A stretch of 20,982 bases of DNA from a virus, in the IMG/VR virus record IMGVR_UViG_3300002835_012783, positions 1 to 20,982 of that record. One strand, 5' to 3'. The position numbers and the translations under genes are program-made. Shown piece by piece: positions 1 to 20,025 of this stretch; the stretch's first letter is position 1, and every line of letters begins with the position of its first letter. The notes beneath the pieces were generated by a model, which did no database searches, had not been told where the DNA came from, and saw nothing but the letters and a program-made list of their open reading frames with translations.

Positions 1-566
1 ATGGTTACTACTTGACCTACATAATTAAGTAAATTTACACCAGTTGTAGTCCAATCTCTCCATCTTACGTTTTGATAGTTTATGAAACCAGGTACATTCC
101 CTCCAGCAGCAACTTGATAAAAAGTACATGGAATTATACTTCCGTTTTGATTTCTAACTTGCATTTCAAAACGAGGTTGAGCAATAGGTGGGTGACCTGG
201 GTCTTCTAAAACAACCGCATAACGATAAATAAATAACGCATTTTGGTTTGATACAACAAACGAGTAAGTTAAACTTTCTGCTTGTGCACCTACCTGACTA
301 TTACCTAAACGAGCTGACTGAGGAATTCCTGGTGGAGTTCTAGTCAAAGTCGGTACAATAGGATCTAAACCAGGAGTCATAATTGTATGACGACCATTTT
401 GAATGGTATTCGGATTGGTAATTGTTATTGGGCAACAAGTGCCAATTCCTCCTACCCAGTTTTGAAAACCGTTCATGGAAAAATCAGCATTTGGACAGTT
501 ACCACCAGGTTGTCCTAAGACATATCCCCATGTTAATAGGAATAGTAGAGTTAAAAAGCGTTTCAT
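1..566 (-). CDS. Secreted Bacteroidetes-type adhesin-like protein, N-terminal part (3' end outside window)
   Basis: The reading frame opens at ATG 566-564 and stays open for 188 codons to the window edge, so this is the N-terminal part of a longer protein. Residues 1-18 form a signal peptide (MKRFLTLLFLLTWGYVLG, then Q). The region around residues 100-188 has a pattern I recognise from the N-termini of large Bacteroidetes surface proteins: a beta-rich stretch (LTYSFVVSNQNALFIYRYAV), then PRFEMQV and VRWRDWTTTGVNL near residues 168-179. Such proteins often carry a C-terminal T9SS signal, which cannot be checked here. The start overlaps the TGA stop of the preceding gene (ATGA), indicating translational coupling in a secreted-protein operon. 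The function is unknown; a cell-surface or glycan-binding role is inference. Confidence 0.85.
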   Translation of the reverse strand, partial: MKRFLTLLFLLTWGYVLGQPGGNCPNADFSMNGFQNWVGGIGTCCPITITNPNTIQNGRHTIMTPGLDPIVPTLTRTPPGIPQSARLGNSQVGAQAESLTYSFVVSNQNALFIYRYAVVLEDPGHPPIAQPRFEMQVRNQNGSIIPCTFYQVAAGGNVPGFINYQNVRWRDWTTTGVNLLNYVGQVVT

Positions 567-1132
567 CGTAGTAGTGTTAATTGTCCAAGAATATTATCGT
601 AATATGGCTTCTTATTTTGAGTATAGTTAATACGATAAGTATATACACCTTGAGGGACTATTGTACCATTGTAGGTACCATCCCACACAAAGTAAGGATC
701 TTCAGACTGAAATAATTGAGTACCCCATCTGTCGTGTATAGTGACATAAAAGGAGGTAAATTCCCATTGCTCACCATAAATTGAAAAAGTTTCATTTAAT
801 CCATCTCCATTAATAGTAATACAGTTAGGGATATATAAAGTAAAGCAAGGACTAACGGTAACATACAATGCTCTGTAAGGGCCTTCACAATTAAATTCAC
901 TTATCTCTCTTACTTTGATGGCATAAGTTCTAGTTGTATCTTCAGGCCACTGTACACCAATTGTATTACCCGACTGGCCAATCAACATAGTATCAATATA
1001 CCATTCATAAGTTGAATTAGGATATCCTTCCACAGCATAATATTGGAAAGATGATGCCCTACATAAATCAACTCTCTGTTGACCGAATAGAGGACTAATT
1101 GCTAGCAATAATAAGAATACAAATCTAGTCAT
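563..1132 (-). CDS. Small secreted protein with Ig-like domain and gliding-motility/T9SS type B C-terminal domain (CHU_C)
   Basis: 189 residues. Residues 1-18 are a signal peptide (hydrophobic run FVFLLLLAI, cleavage near FGQ). Residues about 22-95 resemble an Ig/PKD-like fold with NSTYEWYID. Residues 100-189 match the gliding-motility-associated C-terminal domain: IPN (101-103), NGDGLNE (108-114), DRWG (134-137), WDG (150-152), PQGVYTY (160-166) and a final GQLTLLR. In Bacteroidetes this domain directs export and surface attachment through the type IX secretion system (type B signal). Host proteins with it are usually far larger; here it has one short domain in front. It overlaps the upstream gene by 8 bases and the downstream gene by 4. 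A surface-displayed protein made during infection is the simplest reading; the role is unknown. Confidence 0.9.
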   Translation of the reverse strand: MTRFVFLLLLAISPLFGQQRVDLCRASSFQYYAVEGYPNSTYEWYIDTMLIGQSGNTIGVQWPEDTTRTYAIKVREISEFNCEGPYRALYVTVSPCFTLYIPNCITINGDGLNETFSIYGEQWEFTSFYVTIHDRWGTQLFQSEDPYFVWDGTYNGTIVPQGVYTYRINYTQNKKPYYDNILGQLTLLR

Positions 1133-1667
1133 GGATAACTGGTGAAGTGTTTGGTAATGGGTAAACTGTAAAGGATGTACCTGCTGAGGTTGTACAACCT
1201 GCTATATTTGTGTAAGTGTAGGTTACGTTATATATACCTGGGTTGAGTGGATTAAATAATCCTCCTGAACCGTTTCCATTTACTATCCACGTACCTCCTG
1301 CTGGGAATGCTTGAAAATTAAATGCTGGTGAATCTTGACAAATATTTGCTATTGGTAGTACTTGAACAACGGGTTGCATGATTTCAATCAAACATACAAC
1401 AGGATTACCTACACATCCTTGAGAGTTGGTTTCTGTAACTGTTAAGGTATAAGTACCGTTTGCTTGCCCCCAGTTAATTGCTACCTGATTAGATGGAGAA
1501 TTGATTAAGGTTCCTCCTCCAGTTAATGACCAATTATAAGTAGAGCCTGGAGTGTTTTGAACCCAATAATTAATTGAATCACCAGCACATACTGTATCAG
1601 GGCAACTAAACTGAGCGCTTAAATTAAGGCTAAAAAATAAGGCTAATATTGATAGTAGGGATTTCAT
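1125..1667 (-). CDS. Secreted two-domain Ig/PKD-like protein
   Basis: 180 residues. A signal peptide covers residues 1-19 (MKSLLSILALFFSLNLSAQ). Two tandem Ig-like domains follow. The first, about residues 22-96, has the typical Bacteroidetes pattern VCAGDSINYWV, GSTYNWSLTGG, INWG and GTYTLTVTETNSQGC. The second, about 100-168, has ICQDSPAF, FPAGGTW, GLFNP and GIYNVTYTYTNIAGC. Paired cysteines (for example C22/C27, C85/C92, C110/C158) suit an exported, disulfide-containing protein. There is no CHU_C domain; the C-terminus is NTSPVIHD, similar to the end of the secreted protein at 2524-3123. It sits 2 bases after the lipoprotein gene and overlaps the following gene by 8 bases. Function unknown; adhesion or surface display is inference. 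Confidence 0.85.
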   Translation of the reverse strand: MKSLLSILALFFSLNLSAQFSCPDTVCAGDSINYWVQNTPGSTYNWSLTGGGTLINSPSNQVAINWGQANGTYTLTVTETNSQGCVGNPVVCLIEIMQPVVQVLPIANICQDSPAFNFQAFPAGGTWIVNGNGSGGLFNPLNPGIYNVTYTYTNIAGCTTSAGTSFTVYPLPNTSPVIHD

Positions 1668-1669
1668 AA

Positions 1670-2512
1670 TTAATTAGTTGTACAATTTACAAATTCGTAT
1701 CCAGTACCTGTCTTTTTCCAGATGATAAATACAAGCTCCATTTTGCTCATATCCCAGTTGCTGTTGTATTCGATAGTTCGAGCCCAATGATATACACCTC
1801 CAGCACTTAAACTGGTGAATACTTCTTCTCCAAATGCACCAGCTGCAATAGCTGATTTAGCTAGTACATGATGATGTATATGCGGGTTTTGAGTACTACC
1901 ATTTTGAGCAGCTTGAATTTCTTTGTATAGAAATAGAGCAGACATTGTATAAGTACCCGATAAATTATCTAGAGCCTTTACATATACATTTACATTTAAT
2001 TTACCAGCATTTTTACCAGCTCCTTGAGTTACATGAGTACCAATAGATAATTTAGGGGTTTGGTTGTTTTTATTTGCTATTTCACTTGGGATACCTGAGG
2101 TACTGGTACCGACAAAAGTTTCATTAACAAAGAAATTAGGTGTTCCTGTATATTGCCATTTAGCAGAAAATTCATCAACTAATGGCCCATTATCAGGTGT
2201 AGTTAGTGCATCGCTAATTTGTAAAGACATAGCCAATGCCCTGCCCTTATGATTAGCATACAGCTCTTCAAATCTTGTAACTCCCCAACCACCACAAGGA
2301 CCACACCAAGTAGCAGTAAACTTACCAAAGATTGAATTTTGCAAACTATCGATATAAACACACGACCCGTTGTCAATAACAGCATCTGGATTATAGTTAA
2401 CTGATTTAGGATCAGTACACCCTTTGACTACCGTTCCATCATCAACCAATAAGGTTGATTCTTGGCAAGCCATTAAAAATAAAGTTGTTAAAATAAATAG
2501 ATAGTGTTTCAT
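1670..2512 (-). CDS. Omp28-like thioredoxin-fold lipoprotein
   Basis: 280 residues. The N-terminus is a lipoprotein signal with lipobox LMAC (residues 13-16, Cys16 lipidated). Residues 31-53 hold one copy of the Bacteroidetes calcium-binding-like repeat GCTDPxxxNYNPxAxxDNGSCVY. From about residue 60 a thioredoxin-like fold follows, with ATWCGPC and the CxxC pair at Cys70/Cys73, as in Omp28-related outer-membrane proteins. The substrate cannot be told. The protein would be anchored in a membrane of the host envelope, possibly facing outward. It sits 11 bases after the upstream secreted gene and 2 bases before the next, so it is part of the same operon. A thiol-redox lipoprotein on a phage genome is unusual. 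Fold assignment is fairly sure; biological role is not. Confidence 0.85.
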   Translation of the reverse strand: MKHYLFILTTLFLMACQESTLLVDDGTVVKGCTDPKSVNYNPDAVIDNGSCVYIDSLQNSIFGKFTATWCGPCGGWGVTRFEELYANHKGRALAMSLQISDALTTPDNGPLVDEFSAKWQYTGTPNFFVNETFVGTSTSGIPSEIANKNNQTPKLSIGTHVTQGAGKNAGKLNVNVYVKALDNLSGTYTMSALFLYKEIQAAQNGSTQNPHIHHHVLAKSAIAAGAFGEEVFTSLSAGGVYHWARTIEYNSNWDMSKMELVFIIWKKTGTGYEFVNCTTN

Positions 2513-2523
2513 GTTGTTTAAGG

Positions 2524-3123
2524 TTAATTGTGAGATATGGGTGAAGTTGAGACTGTAGAACCGTTTATTGTACCATTAAATATATTAAAAGGAACAGTTG
2601 GACATCCATTAATGCCCCAACTACCCCATGTACCATCAGCACCCGCAGTTATTTGAATTAATAAATTCTGGGGAGTGCATTGCTGAGTGGCAATTAGCTG
2701 AAAGCAAAAAGACCAACTACAGTTTATCCCAAAATCTCCCCAATCATTTCCAGGGTTACCATCTACTGGTCCAGCAGGGCCTTCATAAAACCATCCAGGA
2801 CCTACTGTAATTCCTGTTGAGCTAGAAGTTACTGTATTTGCAACCCAAATCCATTGACCTGCATTAGAACAGTTAATTGGAGCTGCTGAAGGTATTACTG
2901 AAGTCCATCCAGGCCCTAAGTTAAGGTCAAATCCTTCTAACCAATTAGACCCAAATCCAGTACCATTCCATCCAGTCATTGTATAACATACTGTTACCAC
3001 TGTACCTGGAGAGTAGGTGTTGTTAGTTGGTTGAGGATTTAGAGTAAAGGATTGTTGACCCGCACATTGAGCGTTAATATGAAGGGAAAAAATAAAACCT
3101 AATAAAGTTAAAAGAACTTTCAT
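2524..3123 (-). CDS. Secreted protein of Bacteroidetes surface type, function unknown
   Basis: 199 residues. The signal peptide is residues 1-19 (MKVLLTLLGFIFSLHINAQ). The mature part is rich in Gly, Trp, Asn, Thr and Cys, with GTVVTVCYTMTGWNG, NWLEGFDLNLGPGW and GINCSWSFCFQL, giving a beta-rich exported protein. I recognise this general pattern from N-terminal regions of large Bacteroidetes surface proteins but cannot name a family. The C-terminus is STSPISHN, like the NTSPVIHD end of the protein at 1125-1667. It starts 5 bases after the stop of the kinase gene and is followed by the lipoprotein gene after 11 bases, so it is the first gene of the secreted cassette. No transmembrane segment is seen beyond the signal. 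Confidence 0.8.
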   Translation of the reverse strand: MKVLLTLLGFIFSLHINAQCAGQQSFTLNPQPTNNTYSPGTVVTVCYTMTGWNGTGFGSNWLEGFDLNLGPGWTSVIPSAAPINCSNAGQWIWVANTVTSSSTGITVGPGWFYEGPAGPVDGNPGNDWGDFGINCSWSFCFQLIATQQCTPQNLLIQITAGADGTWGSWGINGCPTVPFNIFNGTINGSTVSTSPISHN

Positions 3124-13816: not shown

Positions 13817-14186
13817 ATTTCTTCATACTAGTAGAATATGTTGGTTTTTTAGCACTTCTCATAAATTCAGGAACATTAACATTTCCTTGGGAATCTATAA
13901 TAGTGGTCGTGTCTTTACCTTTGGATGCTTTTTCGTATTCTTGGGCCTCCTTATCATAAAAGGATTTTAGTTCATGGAATGTAAAATTTCTTAACCATAT
14001 AGGCATGTGATAGATAGTTTCCCAATCATATCCTCCTTTACCATGAAAAACAATTTCATGGATTTGTTTAAATAAATTTTTACGTGTTTGGGGTGCTGTC
14101 TCCAAACTCAGGCCAAAAAAATTCAATCCCAACTGGGATATTGACTCTATTGTCACTGTTGTTGGGAAAAAAAGTAAGATCAACAT
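13815..14186 (-). CDS. Tail assembly chaperone, second frame (GT-like), probably made by frameshift from the upstream gene
   Basis: The open frame has 123 codons, but its first 107 bases overlap the gp26-like gene in another frame. The meaningful part starts near residue 22 (NFFGLSLETAPQ) and continues TRKNLFKQIHEIVFHGKGGYDW, MPIWLRNFTFHELKSFYD, with a charged C-terminus. There is no convincing start: ATG 14186 begins with hydrophobic residues that are a by-product of the other frame. Position directly before the tape measure and overlap with the preceding gene match the G/GT chaperone arrangement of tailed phages. A +1 (or -2) shift on the T7 run at 14115-14121 would give a fused protein of about 337 residues. 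An internal start is the alternative. Confidence 0.75.
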   Translation of the reverse strand: MLILLFFPTTVTIESISQLGLNFFGLSLETAPQTRKNLFKQIHEIVFHGKGGYDWETIYHMPIWLRNFTFHELKSFYDKEAQEYEKASKGKDTTTIIDSQGNVNVPEFMRSAKKPTYSTSMKK

Positions 14187-14829
14187 CTGGCTGAACTTTT
14201 CTGATGTAATCTCTAAGTGCTCGAGAATCTCGAGCTAAGAGATAATTATCTACAAATTCTCGAATTGTTTTCTTTTCTCGATCTCCATCAACTGATGTAA
14301 TAATATACTTTAAACGAGTAGTTAATTCTGGTGTTGCTTCTTTATTGATTTTCTTTAATCCTTCAAGTTCACGTTCAATATCTCTTTCATCTTTATGAGA
14401 TAAGATTTTGAATGTAATGGAGGTATTTGTTGTAGGTAATGTATAAGAAAATTCATTTACTCCTTTAGTAAATAAACTTTCATCCAGTGGTTTATTCTCA
14501 ATTTGAGTTAAATCAACTGTATGTTCCTCTCCATTATAAGTAAATGTGTAATTTCCTCCATAACCCAAAATACGAGCTGCTACCATTATAGCGTTTTTAT
14601 CACCCACAATTAAATCATCATAATTAACGGGAGAAACAATGAGAGCCTGCATTAACTTGTCCAATACGACACCCTTTTGGATATATGACTGGTTGGTTAG
14701 AATATCCTCGTGTTTTGCGGTCATATAACTCATTTCAATTTTACCTGATGATAAGATATTATCTTCAGGGTAGAGTAAACCTTTTGATGGTAATTCAACT
14801 GTTTCAGTTGGTAACTTTAATTCTGCCAT
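14080..14829 (-). CDS. T4 gp26-like baseplate/tail assembly protein (chaperone G analogue)
   Basis: 249 residues. The N-terminal half matches the T4-type baseplate assembly family (T4_baseplate in Pfam, by memory): LPSKGLLYPED (13-23), IEMSYMTAKHEDILTN (31-46), KGVVLDKLMQALI (52-64) and LIVGDKNAIMVAARILGYG (73-91). It ends in GIEFFWPEFGDSTPNT. The last 11 codons follow a T7 run where the second frame may be entered. Position before the tape measure suits a tail assembly chaperone that holds the tape measure while the tube forms. A late-type promoter variant ends 18 bases before the ATG. Confidence 0.85.
   Translation of the reverse strand: MAELKLPTETVELPSKGLLYPEDNILSSGKIEMSYMTAKHEDILTNQSYIQKGVVLDKLMQALIVSPVNYDDLIVGDKNAIMVAARILGYGGNYTFTYNGEEHTVDLTQIENKPLDESLFTKGVNEFSYTLPTTNTSITFKILSHKDERDIERELEGLKKINKEATPELTTRLKYIITSVDGDREKKTIREFVDNYLLARDSRALRDYIRKVQPDVDLTFFPNNSDNRVNIPVGIEFFWPEFGDSTPNT
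14113..14124 (-). other. Probable programmed frameshift site
   Basis: On the minus strand the bases are GAATTTTTTTGG, read in the gp26-like frame as GAA TTT TTT TGG. The second frame reads AAT TTT TTT GGC. A Phe-tRNA in the P site on TTT can re-pair with the next TTT, moving the ribosome +1 (equivalent to -2 in frame). A second T7 run followed by CCC lies at 14167-14173 in the same overlap and is an alternative site. A one-base homopolymer error in the assembly would have the same look. Confidence 0.55.
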
Positions 14830-14847
14830 AGACTATTTTTATTATGT

Positions 14848-14862
14848 TCTATTATATGTATG
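14848..14862 (-). promoter_or_regulatory. Late-type promoter motif before the gp26-like gene
   Basis: The minus strand reads CATACATATAATAGA, one base from the consensus. It lies 24 bases after the terminator at 14887-14908 and ends 18 bases before ATG 14829. Confidence 0.7.
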
Positions 14863-14886
14863 TACGATATGAAAAAGAAATAAAAA

Positions 14887-14908
14887 AGCCAAACATTTCT
14901 GTTTGGCT
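14887..14908 (-). terminator. Intrinsic terminator after the three small tagged genes
   Basis: A perfect 8-bp stem AGCCAAAC / GTTTGGCT with a 6-base loop is followed on the minus strand by TTTTTTA. It lies 22 bases after the stop of the gene at 14931-15299. Confidence 0.9.
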
Positions 14909-14930
14909 CTTTATTAAATGTTAGTTGTTT

Positions 14931-15299
14931 TTAAAAATCATCATCATCATCCTCATCATCATCCTCATTAAATTCTTCATCATCTCTGAATGAATCATAT
15001 ATATCGTCTTCTGTACTCGAACTAAAGTTTTCGTATGTTAATTCACCATTAGTTAATTTAACTAGCATATCAATTACATCATCTGGTTGGTTTTTAACCA
15101 TTATATCCCAATAATCTCCAACCATCTTATCATCCATTGTCCCACCAGTTATTTTTGATAGTATATTAGTTATAAAATCAGGTTGATTTTCAACTAAATA
15201 AGTAAATGACTTTTTAACAAGATCCTCAACAGGATTTGATTCATTCATAACTTCAGAGATCTCCTCTCTGATTAGTTTTCTTAGTTGATTTAGTTTCAT
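14931..15299 (-). CDS. Small acidic protein with MKLxxLRxLIxEE N-terminus
   Basis: 122 residues, no known family. The first 20 residues (MKLNQLRKLIREEISEVMNE) are nearly the same as in the next two upstream genes. The middle has two similar halves of a short unit: LVENQPDFITNILSKITGGT and MVKNQPDDVIDMLVKLTNGE, an internal duplication of about 40 residues. The C-terminus is an acidic tail (DDEEFNEDDDEDDDDDF). It starts 2 bases after the upstream stop, so it shares an mRNA with the gene at 15302-15571. A virion-targeting role for the N-terminus is only a hypothesis. Confidence 0.7.
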   Translation of the reverse strand: MKLNQLRKLIREEISEVMNESNPVEDLVKKSFTYLVENQPDFITNILSKITGGTMDDKMVGDYWDIMVKNQPDDVIDMLVKLTNGELTYENFSSSTEDDIYDSFRDDEEFNEDDDEDDDDDF

Positions 15300-15301
15300 A
15301 G

Positions 15302-15571
15302 TTATTGTTTATACATACTGTATAATTTTTTAACCTTTTCCTCATATCCAAGATTCTTAAGTTGATTCATAAGAGACTTAATTTCTTCGTGCTGATATTC
15401 ACCTCGTCTATATGCTCTATGATCATCAGACATAAAATATGTCCAATCATGAGTCTTTAAAAGAGATTCTAGTTTGTTAAATAATTCTTGAGATGTTGAT
15501 GACATTGTTTCATCTCCGTTCATTGAGGCTAATTCCTCTCTAATTAATTGTCTTAATTGATTTAGTTTCAT
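15302..15571 (-). CDS. Small protein with MKLxxLRxLIxEE N-terminus
   Basis: 89 residues, no recognised family. The N-terminus MKLNQLRQLIREELASMN is shared with its neighbours. The rest is polar and helical with aromatic residues (LLKTHDWTYFMSDDHRAYRRG, MNQLKNLGYEEKVKKLYSMY). A class-2 promoter-like element ends 13 bases before its ATG and overlaps the stop of the upstream gene. The gene at 14931-15299 follows after 2 bases. Confidence 0.7.
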   Translation of the reverse strand: MKLNQLRQLIREELASMNGDETMSSTSQELFNKLESLLKTHDWTYFMSDDHRAYRRGEYQHEEIKSLMNQLKNLGYEEKVKKLYSMYKQ

Positions 15572-15584
15572 AGTTTTTGTTTTT

Positions 15585-15605
15585 ATAAATATACGAATAA
15601 TATTT
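15585..15605 (-). promoter_or_regulatory. Class-2 promoter-like element before the gene at 15302-15571
   Basis: The minus strand has AAATATTATT, then CGT, then ATATTTAT, with the same spacing as the other two copies. The -7-like TATATTTA is present, but the TTTG expected 20 bases upstream is absent. It overlaps the TAA stop of the upstream gene. Confidence 0.5.
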
Positions 15606-16042
15606 TAGGTAGATTTATGTTGGAATCCTTTACCGGCCATAAGTTGTGATCCTCTTTGATTTAACCATTTTTTAGCTTTGTTTAATGAAGCCGCTACATT
15701 ATATTGACCATGAACCTTTTCACCAGGAATGTCTTCTAATTTATTTCCATTTTTATCCATTATGTAAGTCTGAATATAATAAAAATAATGATGAGGAAGA
15801 TTAAAATCTAATTCTTCACCTTCAGGGGTTAAAACATATCCCTGAGTTTTAAGTTGAAAATTTAATCCTTCAGGAGTAGTATACATTTCATCTTTTATAT
15901 CAAGTGTATATTTATCATGTATTTTATTCCCAAACTCACTTTTACTAGTTTCTTTAGAGATTATTTTGTAAGATGGATTTACCTCATTAATAGCTTTAGA
16001 AATTTCCTCTTTGATTAGTTGTCTTAATTCTTGTAATTTCAT
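15605..16042 (-). CDS. Protein with MKLxxLRxLIxEE N-terminus, function unknown
   Basis: 145 residues, no recognised family. The N-terminus MKLQELRQLIKEEISKAINE belongs to the shared set. The rest is a mixed alpha/beta domain with GNKIHDKYTLDIKDEMYTTP, LTPEGEELDFNLPHHYFYY and KAKKWLNQRG near the end. It lies between the tube gene and the next tagged gene, each with a class-2 element. The promoter element ends 3 bases before the ATG, so little or no leader is expected. Confidence 0.7.
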   Translation of the reverse strand: MKLQELRQLIKEEISKAINEVNPSYKIISKETSKSEFGNKIHDKYTLDIKDEMYTTPEGLNFQLKTQGYVLTPEGEELDFNLPHHYFYYIQTYIMDKNGNKLEDIPGEKVHGQYNVAASLNKAKKWLNQRGSQLMAGKGFQHKST

Positions 16043-16045
16043 GAT

Positions 16046-16077
16046 ATAAATATAATAATAATATTTTAGATAGCCAA
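16046..16077 (-). promoter_or_regulatory. Class-2 (host-sigma-like) promoter before the gene at 15605-16042
   Basis: The minus strand has TTTG, 20 bases, then TATATTTA, the same arrangement and spacing as at 4745-4776, including GGCT after TTTG. It contains AAATATTATT-N3-ATATTTAT at 16046-16066. It starts at the stop codon of the tube gene and ends 3 bases before ATG 16042. Confidence 0.6.
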
Positions 16078-16078
16078 A

Positions 16079-16567
16079 TTAGAAGTTCAAAATACAGTAA
16101 TCCATTCCTAAAGTTAGAGTCAAGTTTTGAGCTACTGATTCATTATCCCATGAAAAATCACCTTGAGCAAAGTTCTTAATAAAAGCTCCTTTGATGATCC
16201 ATTCAGAAACAATATCACCTACTGGACCTAGAATGTCTAAAGTAATATCTTTTTTATAGAAATCAGAATAACCATCTCTACCTGTTACTGATTCATGATG
16301 TAGACGAACCCATTCCATACAAGCTTGAGCACCTGAAGGAGTAATTGGGTCAAATAATGTTAAAGTAACATCATTCCAGGTTAATTTACCTTTTACTTTA
16401 CGGTAAACATTGATGTGGTTAAGTTTGATTTCGTCTTGAGAAAATCCTAGACCACTGATTCCTTTAATTGTATAAGCGGGGATTCCGTCAATATACATAA
16501 TAAAACGATTCTGTAGTTTAGGTTCAAAAGCGGTAAAGAATATTTCGTTTGGATTTAGTACTGCCAT
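16079..16567 (-). CDS. Tail tube protein (gp19-like)
   Basis: 162 residues, the usual length for T4-type tube proteins. Motifs: FEPKLQNRFIMYIDGIPAYTIKG (14-36), SQDEIKLNHINVYRKVKGK with the tube-type loop, LTWNDVTLTLFDPITPSGAQA, and C-terminal FAQGDFSWDNESVAQNLTLTL. This is the T4 gp19 family. The protein stacks as rings around the tape measure to make the inner tube. It follows the sheath gene in the standard T4-like order. A late-type promoter variant ends 18 bases before the ATG, allowing separate expression from the sheath. Confidence 0.93.
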   Translation of the reverse strand: MAVLNPNEIFFTAFEPKLQNRFIMYIDGIPAYTIKGISGLGFSQDEIKLNHINVYRKVKGKLTWNDVTLTLFDPITPSGAQACMEWVRLHHESVTGRDGYSDFYKKDITLDILGPVGDIVSEWIIKGAFIKNFAQGDFSWDNESVAQNLTLTLGMDYCILNF

Positions 16568-16585
16568 TTTAGTATATTTATTTGT

Positions 16586-16600
16586 TCTATGATATGTATG
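16586..16600 (-). promoter_or_regulatory. Late-type promoter motif before the tube gene
   Basis: The minus strand reads CATACATATCATAGA, two bases from the consensus and the most diverged of the seven sites. It ends 18 bases before ATG 16567. Confidence 0.6.
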
Positions 16601-16615
16601 TTATTTTTACAAAGT

Positions 16616-18349
16616 TTATGCAAATGTTACTCCAGTAGGTAGAATGTTAAAATCTAAATAAACAAATTCAGCAGTTTTGGTAGGTTGTAAATAAATACCA
16701 CCTCTTAACTCATTTCTGTCAATCACATCTGGAGTATTATTTGAATCATCCATTACTACTCTAAATGCATATAGACCTTGTCTTTGTTGTACAGATTCAA
16801 GATATGGATTAACTTGAGCTAGGAATTGATTTCTAGTGGCAGTAGTGTTTTGTTCAAATACTAAGTTGTCTGCTACTTGAGAAATATATCCTTTTAACTC
16901 AATTAACAATCTTCTAACATTTACTCTATCAAGAGCTGATGCTTGTTTTTGTAGTGTTTTCTGTCCAAATACTACTACACCAGTATTAGGGAATGTAGCA
17001 ATTGGGTTTACTTTTCCTTGATATAAAGTATCTCTGTCTGAGTTGATTAATTTACGTTCAGCTTGAATTACTTGACCTAATCCACCTCTGTTAATACCTG
17101 CAGGGGCAAACCATGCTTCAGCAATTCTATCGTTATTAGCGTAAACTCCAGGGATCATAGTAGAAGCTGGAACCCATACATTTTTACCTGAGTCTGGGTC
17201 TGTGGTTTGTAACCAAGGCCAGTAAGCAGCAGCATATGAAGTATCACGAGAAGCAGCTTGACTAGTTACAGCACCAATTGAAGAACCATATCCTACTAGG
17301 TCAATAGGGGCAATAGCATCTCCTCTATTTTCAATATTTGTAATTAAAGTACTTAATACTGTTGAATGACCTGCAAATGCATCAATTAAGCCAGGAGCTG
17401 AAATAATGTTGTATCTGTATTCGTCTTTATTTGCTAATAAATTAAACACATCAGTATAATTGGTTCCTACTAAACCTTGTGAGTTAGTATTAGTAATATC
17501 TTGGTAATATTTGTTATTTCCTCCGATATTACCAGTAGCATTTTCAAAAGCACCACTTTGTGCAATTGGAATAGAAGAAGTATAGGCATTAATTCTAACA
17601 TCACCATTACTATCAAGATAATCTACAGTAGTTAGAGATACATTGCTTACTCTTACATAGCGAGAAGAGTTACGATATGAACCAGATGGTTGTAGATAAA
17701 TATCAGCTGTACCCGCGTTACGAGTAGTTAAGGTTTGATCACCAATAATTCTAGCTACGTAATTTGAGGAATTAGGATCTAAAGATAAGTTAGTCCATGT
17801 TTCTAGAACAGTTTTGTTATTTGTTCTATCATCACCTCTTCTAATTAATAAACCAAAAGTACCTGAGGCAGTATTAGGAGAAACAATTTCCCATCTTAAA
17901 TTATCTCTTGAACCGCTTGCTAATACACCTTGAGCATCTTCTGGGCCTACACTGTTCATAATTACACCATCACTTAGAGTTTCTAAAGTAAAGGCATTTA
18001 ATGAACCAATGTTAGCACTTGAGGAAATGGGTTGAGATACTGCTGGAGTATATGAACCTGAGGCTACTCTAGTTACAATTAAACTAGTTCCACCATTTTG
18101 GAAATAGTTGTAAGCTGAGATAGAGGTAAAATAAGTATATGTTTGAGCATCTGTTACTGATCCACTGTTAAAAGTAGTACCAAAATAAGCTTGATACTCA
18201 CTATAAGTAGTAATAAGTTTAGGTACTCCTACTTTACCTTTTACAGTTGGACCAACAAGAGCGGCTCCAGCTTGAATAGGTAAGCTAGTAACTTGAGATT
18301 GGTCGTTTTCTCTAGCTAGTACACCGGGTGATAGTAAAATTTCTGCCAT
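16616..18349 (-). CDS. Tail sheath protein (gp18-like)
   Basis: 577 residues. The N-terminus LSPGVLARENDQSQVTSLPIQ with GAALVGPTVKG is typical of contractile sheaths. The C-terminal domain has WVPASTMIPGVYANNDRIAEAWFAPAGINRG, LYQGKVNPIATFPNTGVVVFGQKTL, RVNVRRLLIELKGYI and a late ELRGGIYLQPTKTAEFVYLDF. Sheath subunits surround the tube and contract to drive it through the envelope. The middle third (about 130-300) is the variable surface-exposed insertion region of this family. It is preceded by an exact late-type promoter and followed by the tube gene. Confidence 0.95.
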   Translation of the reverse strand: MAEILLSPGVLARENDQSQVTSLPIQAGAALVGPTVKGKVGVPKLITTYSEYQAYFGTTFNSGSVTDAQTYTYFTSISAYNYFQNGGTSLIVTRVASGSYTPAVSQPISSSANIGSLNAFTLETLSDGVIMNSVGPEDAQGVLASGSRDNLRWEIVSPNTASGTFGLLIRRGDDRTNNKTVLETWTNLSLDPNSSNYVARIIGDQTLTTRNAGTADIYLQPSGSYRNSSRYVRVSNVSLTTVDYLDSNGDVRINAYTSSIPIAQSGAFENATGNIGGNNKYYQDITNTNSQGLVGTNYTDVFNLLANKDEYRYNIISAPGLIDAFAGHSTVLSTLITNIENRGDAIAPIDLVGYGSSIGAVTSQAASRDTSYAAAYWPWLQTTDPDSGKNVWVPASTMIPGVYANNDRIAEAWFAPAGINRGGLGQVIQAERKLINSDRDTLYQGKVNPIATFPNTGVVVFGQKTLQKQASALDRVNVRRLLIELKGYISQVADNLVFEQNTTATRNQFLAQVNPYLESVQQRQGLYAFRVVMDDSNNTPDVIDRNELRGGIYLQPTKTAEFVYLDFNILPTGVTFA

Positions 18350-18663: not shown

Positions 18664-20025
18664 TTAAGTTAATAATACAAAACCTGTGAATACTACATAA
18701 GCTGTTCCTGATCCTAAATTGTTATTTACTTCTATAACTCCAGTTGAACTATCTAAAGTGATATTTAAGCCATTACTATAACTAGTTAAAACAGTATTAG
18801 CAGTTATAAAAGCAGTATCTCCTAAATGTTTTCCTACTAATATAGGAAAAGCTGCTGATGTGAACAAACCTCCTGTCATAGTACCACTTCCTGCTATCAT
18901 CTGGAATTTTGAGCCACTTTGGACAGTGGGTACTGCTGAGGAACTTACTTGATAATATCCATAAACATAATCTGCATCTGTTGCTTTACTAGCATAAGAG
19001 GCACTAACTACACTTCCTAATAATAAAGAAGCGGTAGCAGCATAAGAGGAAGATAAAGCTGTTGAAGCAAAGGATGCTGAAGTTGATGTTAAAGCACTTG
19101 CAGCAGTTGTTGCTGAGGTTGCTGTTGTTGCTGAGGTTGCTGTTGTTGCTGAATCAGCTGTGACCGCGTAAGAGGCACTAACTACAGTTCCTAATAATAA
19201 TGAGGCTGTAGCAGCATATGAAGCAGAAGTTGCTGTAGTAGCGGAAGTTGCTGATATTGCTGTTGTAGCTACATTAGCTGAGTTTGCTGTTGTTGCTGTA
19301 GTAGCAGTTGCCGCTAAAGTAGCATAAGAGGCACTAACTGCATTTAAAACATATGAGGCAGTTGTTGCTGTAATGGATGTAGTGGCAGTTTCTGCTAAAA
19401 TAGCAAAAGAAGCTGTATTAGCCAAAGAAGCAGTAGCGGCATATGATGCACTTTGTACTGTTCCTAACAATAAGGAAGCTGTAGCAGCATATGAAGCAGA
19501 AGTTGCTGTGGTTGCTATTGAAGCTGAATTTGCTATAGTGGCTAAATCCGCTAAAGCTGAAATTAAAGCATATGAGGATGTTAAAGCTGTGGTAGCAAAA
19601 CTAGCAGTTACAGCATAGGAGGCACTTACTACACTTAAAGCTAAACTTGATGTGGTTGAATTTACCGCGTAAGAGGCTGAGGTTGAGGTAAGAGCATAAG
19701 ATGAGGAAATAGTAAAGGAGGCAGTTTGGGCATTCGCTACATATGAGGATGTTTGAGCAAAGGAAGCTGTTAAAGCTTGTTGTATAAATGAGGCAGTTAA
19801 TGCATTTGATGCTGTTAAAGCTTGATTGGCATATGAGGCTGTTCCTTGTAAAGATCCAGTTAAACCTCCAGAATCCATTGATAATGAACCTGTGATAATT
19901 AAGCTACCACTTATAGTTATGTCATAAGCTGCTGCTCCAGTTAATGCATCTATTGATTGTGATACATGAGCCGCCTCAATTGTTGAGGTGTTGTTTATAC
20001 CACTATTTGATAATATTAATGCCAT
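18664..20025 (-). CDS. Ala/Ser/Thr-rich repeat protein, probable fibre or whisker
   Basis: 453 residues. After an N-terminal domain (1-60, ISGSLIITGSLSMDSGG) about 300 residues consist of degenerate short repeats built on ASYA-x-TAS and SATTAT units. SASYAATASLLLGTV-type segments recur several times. The C-terminal about 90 residues (from DADYVYGYYQVSSS) are non-repetitive and may be a head or trimerisation domain. Such patterns occur in phage fibre shafts. It lies between gp15-like and sheath genes, an unusual site for a tail fibre, so a neck whisker or head-tail decoration is possible. A late-type promoter ends 7 bases before the ATG. Confidence 0.8.
   Translation of the reverse strand: MALILSNSGINNTSTIEAAHVSQSIDALTGAAAYDITISGSLIITGSLSMDSGGLTGSLQGTASYANQALTASNALTASFIQQALTASFAQTSSYVANAQTASFTISSSYALTSTSASYAVNSTTSSLALSVVSASYAVTASFATTALTSSYALISALADLATIANSASIATTATSASYAATASLLLGTVQSASYAATASLANTASFAILAETATTSITATTASYVLNAVSASYATLAATATTATTANSANVATTAISATSATTATSASYAATASLLLGTVVSASYAVTADSATTATSATTATSATTAASALTSTSASFASTALSSSYAATASLLLGSVVSASYASKATDADYVYGYYQVSSSAVPTVQSGSKFQMIAGSGTMTGGLFTSAAFPILVGKHLGDTAFITANTVLTSYSNGLNITLDSSTGVIEVNNNLGSGTAYVVFTGFVLLT
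19000..19860 (-). repeat. Degenerate coding repeats of the fibre-like gene
   Basis: The DNA repeats short Ala/Ser/Thr codon blocks. Two perfect 18-base copies lie at 19115-19132 and 19133-19150 (GAGGTTGCTGTTGTTGCT on the plus strand). Longer near-copies encode SASYAATASLLLG around 19010-19050, 19180-19220 and 19430-19490. Boundaries are approximate. Confidence 0.8.

Follow-up and report, generated by a model that had tools for sequence, protein, structure and literature searches.

Why do three neighbouring phage genes that encode unrelated proteins begin with nearly the same amino acids? The genes lie in a 20,982-base viral record (hereafter the window) from an uncultivated T4-like phage, a fragment without head genes, and a first-pass annotation of this DNA had likened their common N-terminus to the capsid-targeting sequences of T4 internal head proteins. 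We think it probable that this N-terminus (the tag) is a capsid-targeting propeptide that acts like the T4 internal-protein leader and represents a new, heavily expanded class.

Three tagged genes in a slot between tail genes

The three genes are encoded on the minus strand and follow one another, in order of transcription, as gene A (15605..16042; 145 aa, start MKLQELRQLIKEEISKAINEV), gene B (15302..15571; 89 aa, start MKLNQLRQLIREELASMNGDE) and gene C (14931..15299; 122 aa, start MKLNQLRKLIREEISEVMNES). The cassette slot that they occupy is bounded upstream by the tail tube protein gene (16079..16567, minus strand; PHROG 4542, E 1.3e-22) and downstream by a baseplate-hub-like gene (14080..14829, minus strand; PHROG 150 baseplate hub, E 1.8e-7). 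All three reading frames were found where the first-pass annotation had placed them, and a degenerate tag pattern has exactly three matches in the window, at the starts of A, B and C, with none in 100 dinucleotide shuffles. The common consensus is MK(L)xxLRxLI(R/K)EE, and the tags are similar, not identical, in DNA. Behind the tag the bodies are unrelated, as had been claimed: iterated searches kept them as separate families, none reached a Pfam family above cut-off, and their PHROG matches were weak and different from one another. The claim of near-identity over residues 1-20 held for the tag common to all three, but not for its end. The tags of gene A (residues 1-20, MKLQELRQLIKEEISKAINE; 15983..16042, minus strand) and gene C (MKLNQLRKLIREEISEVMNE; 15240..15299, minus strand) have predicted cuts after E12 and E20, the second (I/L/M)xE site at residue 20 reading AINE|V and VMNE|S, respectively. 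The tag of gene B (MKLNQLRQLIREELASMNGDE; 15509..15571, minus strand), in contrast, continues as SMNGDE|T without a second site, and its sole IxE site is the first, IRE at residue 12.

AlphaFold2 models of genes A and B, built on shallow alignments, begin with a helix in both cases. In gene A the helix spans residues 3-19, pLDDT falls below 50 at residues 15-22 and a beta-rich body starts at residue 26, so that the model sets the tag apart as its own helix, joined to the body by a stretch of low confidence where the cut is predicted. In gene B a helix at residues 2-18 is followed by a small helical domain (pLDDT 79.6). A fold search with the gene A model found nothing in PDB with E below 0.1 and no significant match in BFVD. 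Relatives of gene A were found at 94-100% identity in L123-L133 and at 51% in L195. Gene C has shorter relatives in L128, L131 and L284. In place of the single stretch found in relatives it has a similar pair, LVENQPDFITNILSKITGG and MVKNQPDDVIDMLVKLTNG, and its C-terminus is acidic.

Elsewhere in the window (563-3123, minus strand) proteins with secretion-signal-like starts are encoded inside the phage tail cluster. One of them carries a C-terminal CHU_C type IX secretion signal domain (E 2.3e-16) and another matches Omp28 (E 3e-12), and these two matches point to a Bacteroidota host. A 453-aa protein encoded between sheath-side genes (18664-20025, minus strand) consists mostly of Ala/Ser/Thr-rich, ASYA-type repeats and has no Pfam match.

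Spread of the tag and exchange of the genes behind it

Sought in other phages, as the first-pass annotation had suggested, the tag proved widespread. We collected 347 unique tagged proteins, whose bodies beyond residue 22 form 196 clusters without detectable mutual similarity (blastp, 1e-3, with the class (i) family described below set aside); the carriers are thus nearly 200 small, unrelated proteins in related aquatic phages. Two tag DNA patterns each matched at least 120 stretches in viral contigs and a third matched 14, whereas two tag patterns gave 0 and 1 match in 84,980 bacterial and archaeal genomes. The sole match lies on a 3 kb contig that encodes two more proteins with similar leaders and is probably a misbinned phage fragment. 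Up to about ten mutually unrelated tagged proteins occur at a single locus, L219 and L029 have nine exact-pattern genes within 10-14 kb, and a profile of the tag, run on sixteen records, gave 8-14 copies in most of them (E up to 1, the weakest being doubtful). Three tag variants, on gp095, gp094 and gp080, are present in the cultured Flavobacterium phage immuto (host Flavobacterium sp. LMO8), which makes the head-loading idea testable. These copies were found by profile and missed by tblastn of the tag against cultured phages, an insensitive search because the query is too short. The literal tag strings appear in no paper of the literature searched, whose scope mostly excludes subscription journals. 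In-frame TGA codons in the Peptidase_S77 genes of G024 and G028 (L244 and L209; 3 and 2 codons, respectively) suggest that a stop codon may be reassigned in some tag-bearing phages.

The contents of the slot vary among relatives of the window (A-B-C, D-A-B-C, D-A-C, A-C, B-C and D-A-E), and in immuto the slot is empty of tagged genes, the tube gene lying next to the hub gene. Body C occurs behind three tags (MKLNQLRKLIREE, MKKSELRQLIREE and MKLQELRQLIREE), and in L131 the upstream sequence and tag start of gene A precede body C, which places a recombination junction inside the tag. Remnants such as MKLNQTKTMKLNQLRQ may be the scars of such junctions. Overall, comparison of the loci shows that cargo genes have been reshuffled by recombination within homologous tag DNA. 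Matches to proteins that the pattern had not scored as tagged were found for 30 of 176 bodies; some of these proteins have divergent or start-misassigned tags, and in the clear cases the match carries a different leader or is a domain within a head-module protein. In the relatives L131, L133 and L124 (for example L133 3530-5008, minus strand) a 493-aa reading frame, missing from the window, separates the sheath gene from the tube gene; it runs on the opposite strand and looks like a homing-endonuclease-type gene.

Cut-type sites and the head-gene context

Compared position by position across the 196 clusters, residues M1 to E13 are strongly conserved, and conservation stops at E17, E19 or E20. 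The (L/I)xE site at E12 is present in 194 of the 196 tags. A second site, [LIVM]xE ending at residues 17-24, occurs in 161 of 196, compared with a mean of 57 and a maximum of 76 in 500 shuffles of residues 14-25, a test in which helix periodicity is not fully separable from a cleavage site. The background of this motif downstream of the tag is about 9% per 10-residue window, and the residue after the second site is A, G or S in 65 of the 161 tags.

Other leaders in the same phages obey the same rule (MIKLHDILKE, MxNFDLKKFLxE and MRTSLLDLLKE). In immuto the NFDLKKFL leader, related to the tag, is found on gp077, gp076, gp092 and gp003. A general motif ending at residue 7-14 is found in 78 of 476 proteins of the head and neighbouring regions (background 0.5 per position). 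It opens several proteases (MKHLLIE), scaffolds (MKDLLKE) and capsid proteins (MSLQTILNE) encoded by these phages themselves; several S77 proteases begin with LLVD, not LLIE. In immuto this motif is enriched between 100 and 160 kb (11/63) relative to the first 100 kb (4/150; Fisher p 0.0004). Unrelated bodies also share two other leaders, M[DN]xxLWNKxxxxNxL and M..KKxKxxEGxxxxxSLLPV (L162 (G015) 13881-17816; L298 5033-6788 and 17304-17546), which are possibly further targeting leaders.

The T4 prohead protease gp21 cuts after L/I-X-E (PMC9026906). Peptidase_S77, the T4-type prohead protease, is encoded in every one of the 11 tag-bearing records that reach 100 kb, and the tag-bearing records without it are all about 65 kb or shorter. 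The Gp23 capsid protein was found in 9 of the 15 tag-bearing records tested. One record, G010 (read as L153), matches the window at about 92-96% identity across most of the aligned segments; it has genes A and C, both tagged, as well as the genes for protease, scaffold and capsid. Maturation of T4 gp23 removes a 65-residue propeptide by a cut at E65 (PMC9958956). In an alignment of T4 gp23 with 12 tag-group capsid proteins and that of immuto, E65 is an invariant column with L, I or V at P3 in nearly all rows (LNE|T, VSE|A, VTE|A, VVE|S and similar contexts). The comparison with the capsid cleavage site that the first-pass annotation had proposed therefore finds the site kept in an (L/I)xE-like context, which points to one specificity for the second site of the tag and the capsid site.

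Tagged genes adjoin the protease gene, or sit between portal, protease, scaffold and capsid genes, in five records (G015, G016, G022, G037 and G027; loci read, L162, L298, L303, L306 and L307). Of 36 tag clusters in ten records, 17 are no more than 20 kb from the protease, compared with 8.2 expected (p about 0.001, an approximate value that takes clusters as independent and uniform). The domain of gene B has phmmer matches immediately upstream of Peptidase_S77 genes (L298:8985-9554 and L299:6576-7784) and also in L010, L178 and L253.

Proposed head loading, its alternatives and known systems

A further family, class (i), accounted for most matches of the first pattern scan and was then split off. 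Its 82 sequences are about 140 aa long, with the N-terminus MKLDQLRKIIREEV (consensus MKLDQLRKIIREEVRxAVKEELQEVMNEA), and their first 14 residues are almost exactly those of the tag. The gene, conserved and single-copy, precedes gp25- and gp6-like genes in the baseplate module (for example in L058, L040, L008 and L016); the immuto ortholog is gp114 (L165 31525-31941). All 82 sequences have [LIM]xE|A at residues 24-31. This touches in part on what the first-pass annotation had named as evidence against it, an uncleaved tag on cytoplasmic proteins: a near-identical N-terminus does occur on a baseplate-module protein, yet one with a cut-type site in every sequence. Class (i) may belong to the head although its gene lies among baseplate genes, or such a helix may also serve the tail, and the position of class (i) in the baseplate module is the main reason why our confidence in head loading is not higher. 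The other points that we count against head loading are the slot of the window among tail genes, the head genes being read in relatives such as L153 and not in the window, the missing second site of gene B, the LLVD starts of several proteases and the limited power of the shuffle test to tell helix periodicity from a cleavage site.

Could the tag be a helix that docks onto a tail or baseplate component, its carriers being accessory tail proteins or tail assembly factors? Besides class (i), the window genes are flanked by tail tube and hub genes, and tagged genes near sheath and hub genes were seen in L302 (14496-14849, between the two, a slot like that of the window) and L307 (14434-14655). 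We nevertheless regard tail docking as quite improbable, given that tagged arrays also occur in the head block adjoining the protease, that a locus can hold up to about ten unrelated tagged proteins, that the same slot in immuto lacks tagged genes and that the tag ends in protease-type sites. Only slightly less doubtful is a role as minor scaffold-like proteins of the prohead core, needed for assembly and then degraded instead of being kept and injected. The domain of gene B and other tagged bodies are indeed encoded beside the protease, where T4 has the core proteins gp67 and gp68, and T4 IPIII has an assembly role. Unlike essential core proteins, however, the bodies are very diverse, vary among close relatives and are dispensable as a set in the window slot, and their cut-type sites lie at the end of the tag, not across the body.

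It is very improbable that the common start is a DNA or RNA element, such as a translation leader or recombination site, with no role for its protein product. Tag DNA is similar among neighbours and acts as a recombination junction, but conservation ends at a protease-type motif. Among the 196 bodies, codon choice differs in 61% of pairs with I10 in both and in 59% for L6. Constant amino acids with widely varying synonymous codons place the conservation at the protein level, and we rejected the nucleic-acid reading on this ground.

We infer head loading and tag cleavage from the comparisons above. Late in infection the tag, as an N-terminal amphipathic helix (MKxxxLRxIIRE), would bind the prohead core, and the cargo would be trapped as the T4-type shell assembles. 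Peptidase_S77 would cut after (I/L)xE, at E12 and/or a second site near E20, and free the mature body, a step that we derive from the motif, protease and capsid-protein evidence. More speculatively, the bodies might stay in the head with the DNA and then be injected, perhaps as diverse early effectors such as anti-restriction proteins, or some may merely help head assembly. The capsid-targeting analogy of the first-pass annotation thus gained from several independent computational tests: the co-occurrence of the protease, the conserved capsid cut site, the enriched (L/I)xE motif, the head-module location, the exchange of leaders and the domains in common with head-module proteins. Its suggestion of an action against host defences found no such backing: among 145 tagged proteins, a Pfam scan gave almost nothing beyond isolated matches and a PADLOC scan gave no defence-related signal beyond single weak matches. 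Since these matches are isolated, we claim no effector class.

T4 IPI, IPII and IPIII have the leader alone in common and block distinct GmrSD restriction enzymes (PMC12373910). The tagged proteins are similar in organisation, and it is plausible, as speculation, that their bodies are injected and act against host defences. More tentatively, and with somewhat more doubt than belief, we propose that uncultivated T4-like phages, at least some of them on Bacteroidota, use a head-loading code unlike that of T4 in sequence to package and inject hundreds of recombining, unrelated effector families, most without recognisable relatives. If the head-loading reading is right, the start rule MKxxxLRxIIREE...LxE would identify proteins that are packaged into the head and probably injected, in abundant phages beyond the reach of cultivation, and hundreds of uncharacterised proteins would be open to screening as anti-defence or host-takeover factors. 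The tag would also offer an alternative means of loading proteins into T4-like capsids, and tag-mediated recombination would be suggested as a way in which phages swap such cargo.

The closest known parallel is the leader of T4 IPII and IPIII (MKTYQEFIAE|A, cut by gp21), likewise short, N-terminal and carried by small phage proteins that are otherwise unrelated. In MKTYQEFIAE residues 4 and 7 serve mainly targeting, and residues 8 and 10 processing (PMC9026906). The tag hydrophobics L6, I9 and I10 together with E12 repeat this spacing shifted by two, so that register and start are alike, although the match is too short to show common descent. The phages with the tag also encode a T4-type protease and capsid protein, and in both systems the cargo genes vary among relatives. 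The tag differs from the T4 leader in sequence, is about twice as long and usually has cut-type sites at both E12 and E17-E20 where the T4 leader has a single one, and records of the tag group hold up to about 10-14 tagged genes compared with the three internal proteins of T4. Head propeptides of phiKZ and SPN3US are removed by the prohead protease after Glu, often at multiple sites (PMC9026906). The tag resembles these propeptides in its Glu sites, often several, its removal being predicted from sequence. Unlike phiKZ and SPN3US, which cut at S/A-X-E, the tag group has a T4-type Gp23 and Peptidase_S77. In contractile injection systems, a short N-terminal leader loads unrelated cargo proteins into a contractile particle. 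In contrast to those signals, the head protease site of the tag and its setting among head genes indicate the capsid as the destination and not the tube lumen.
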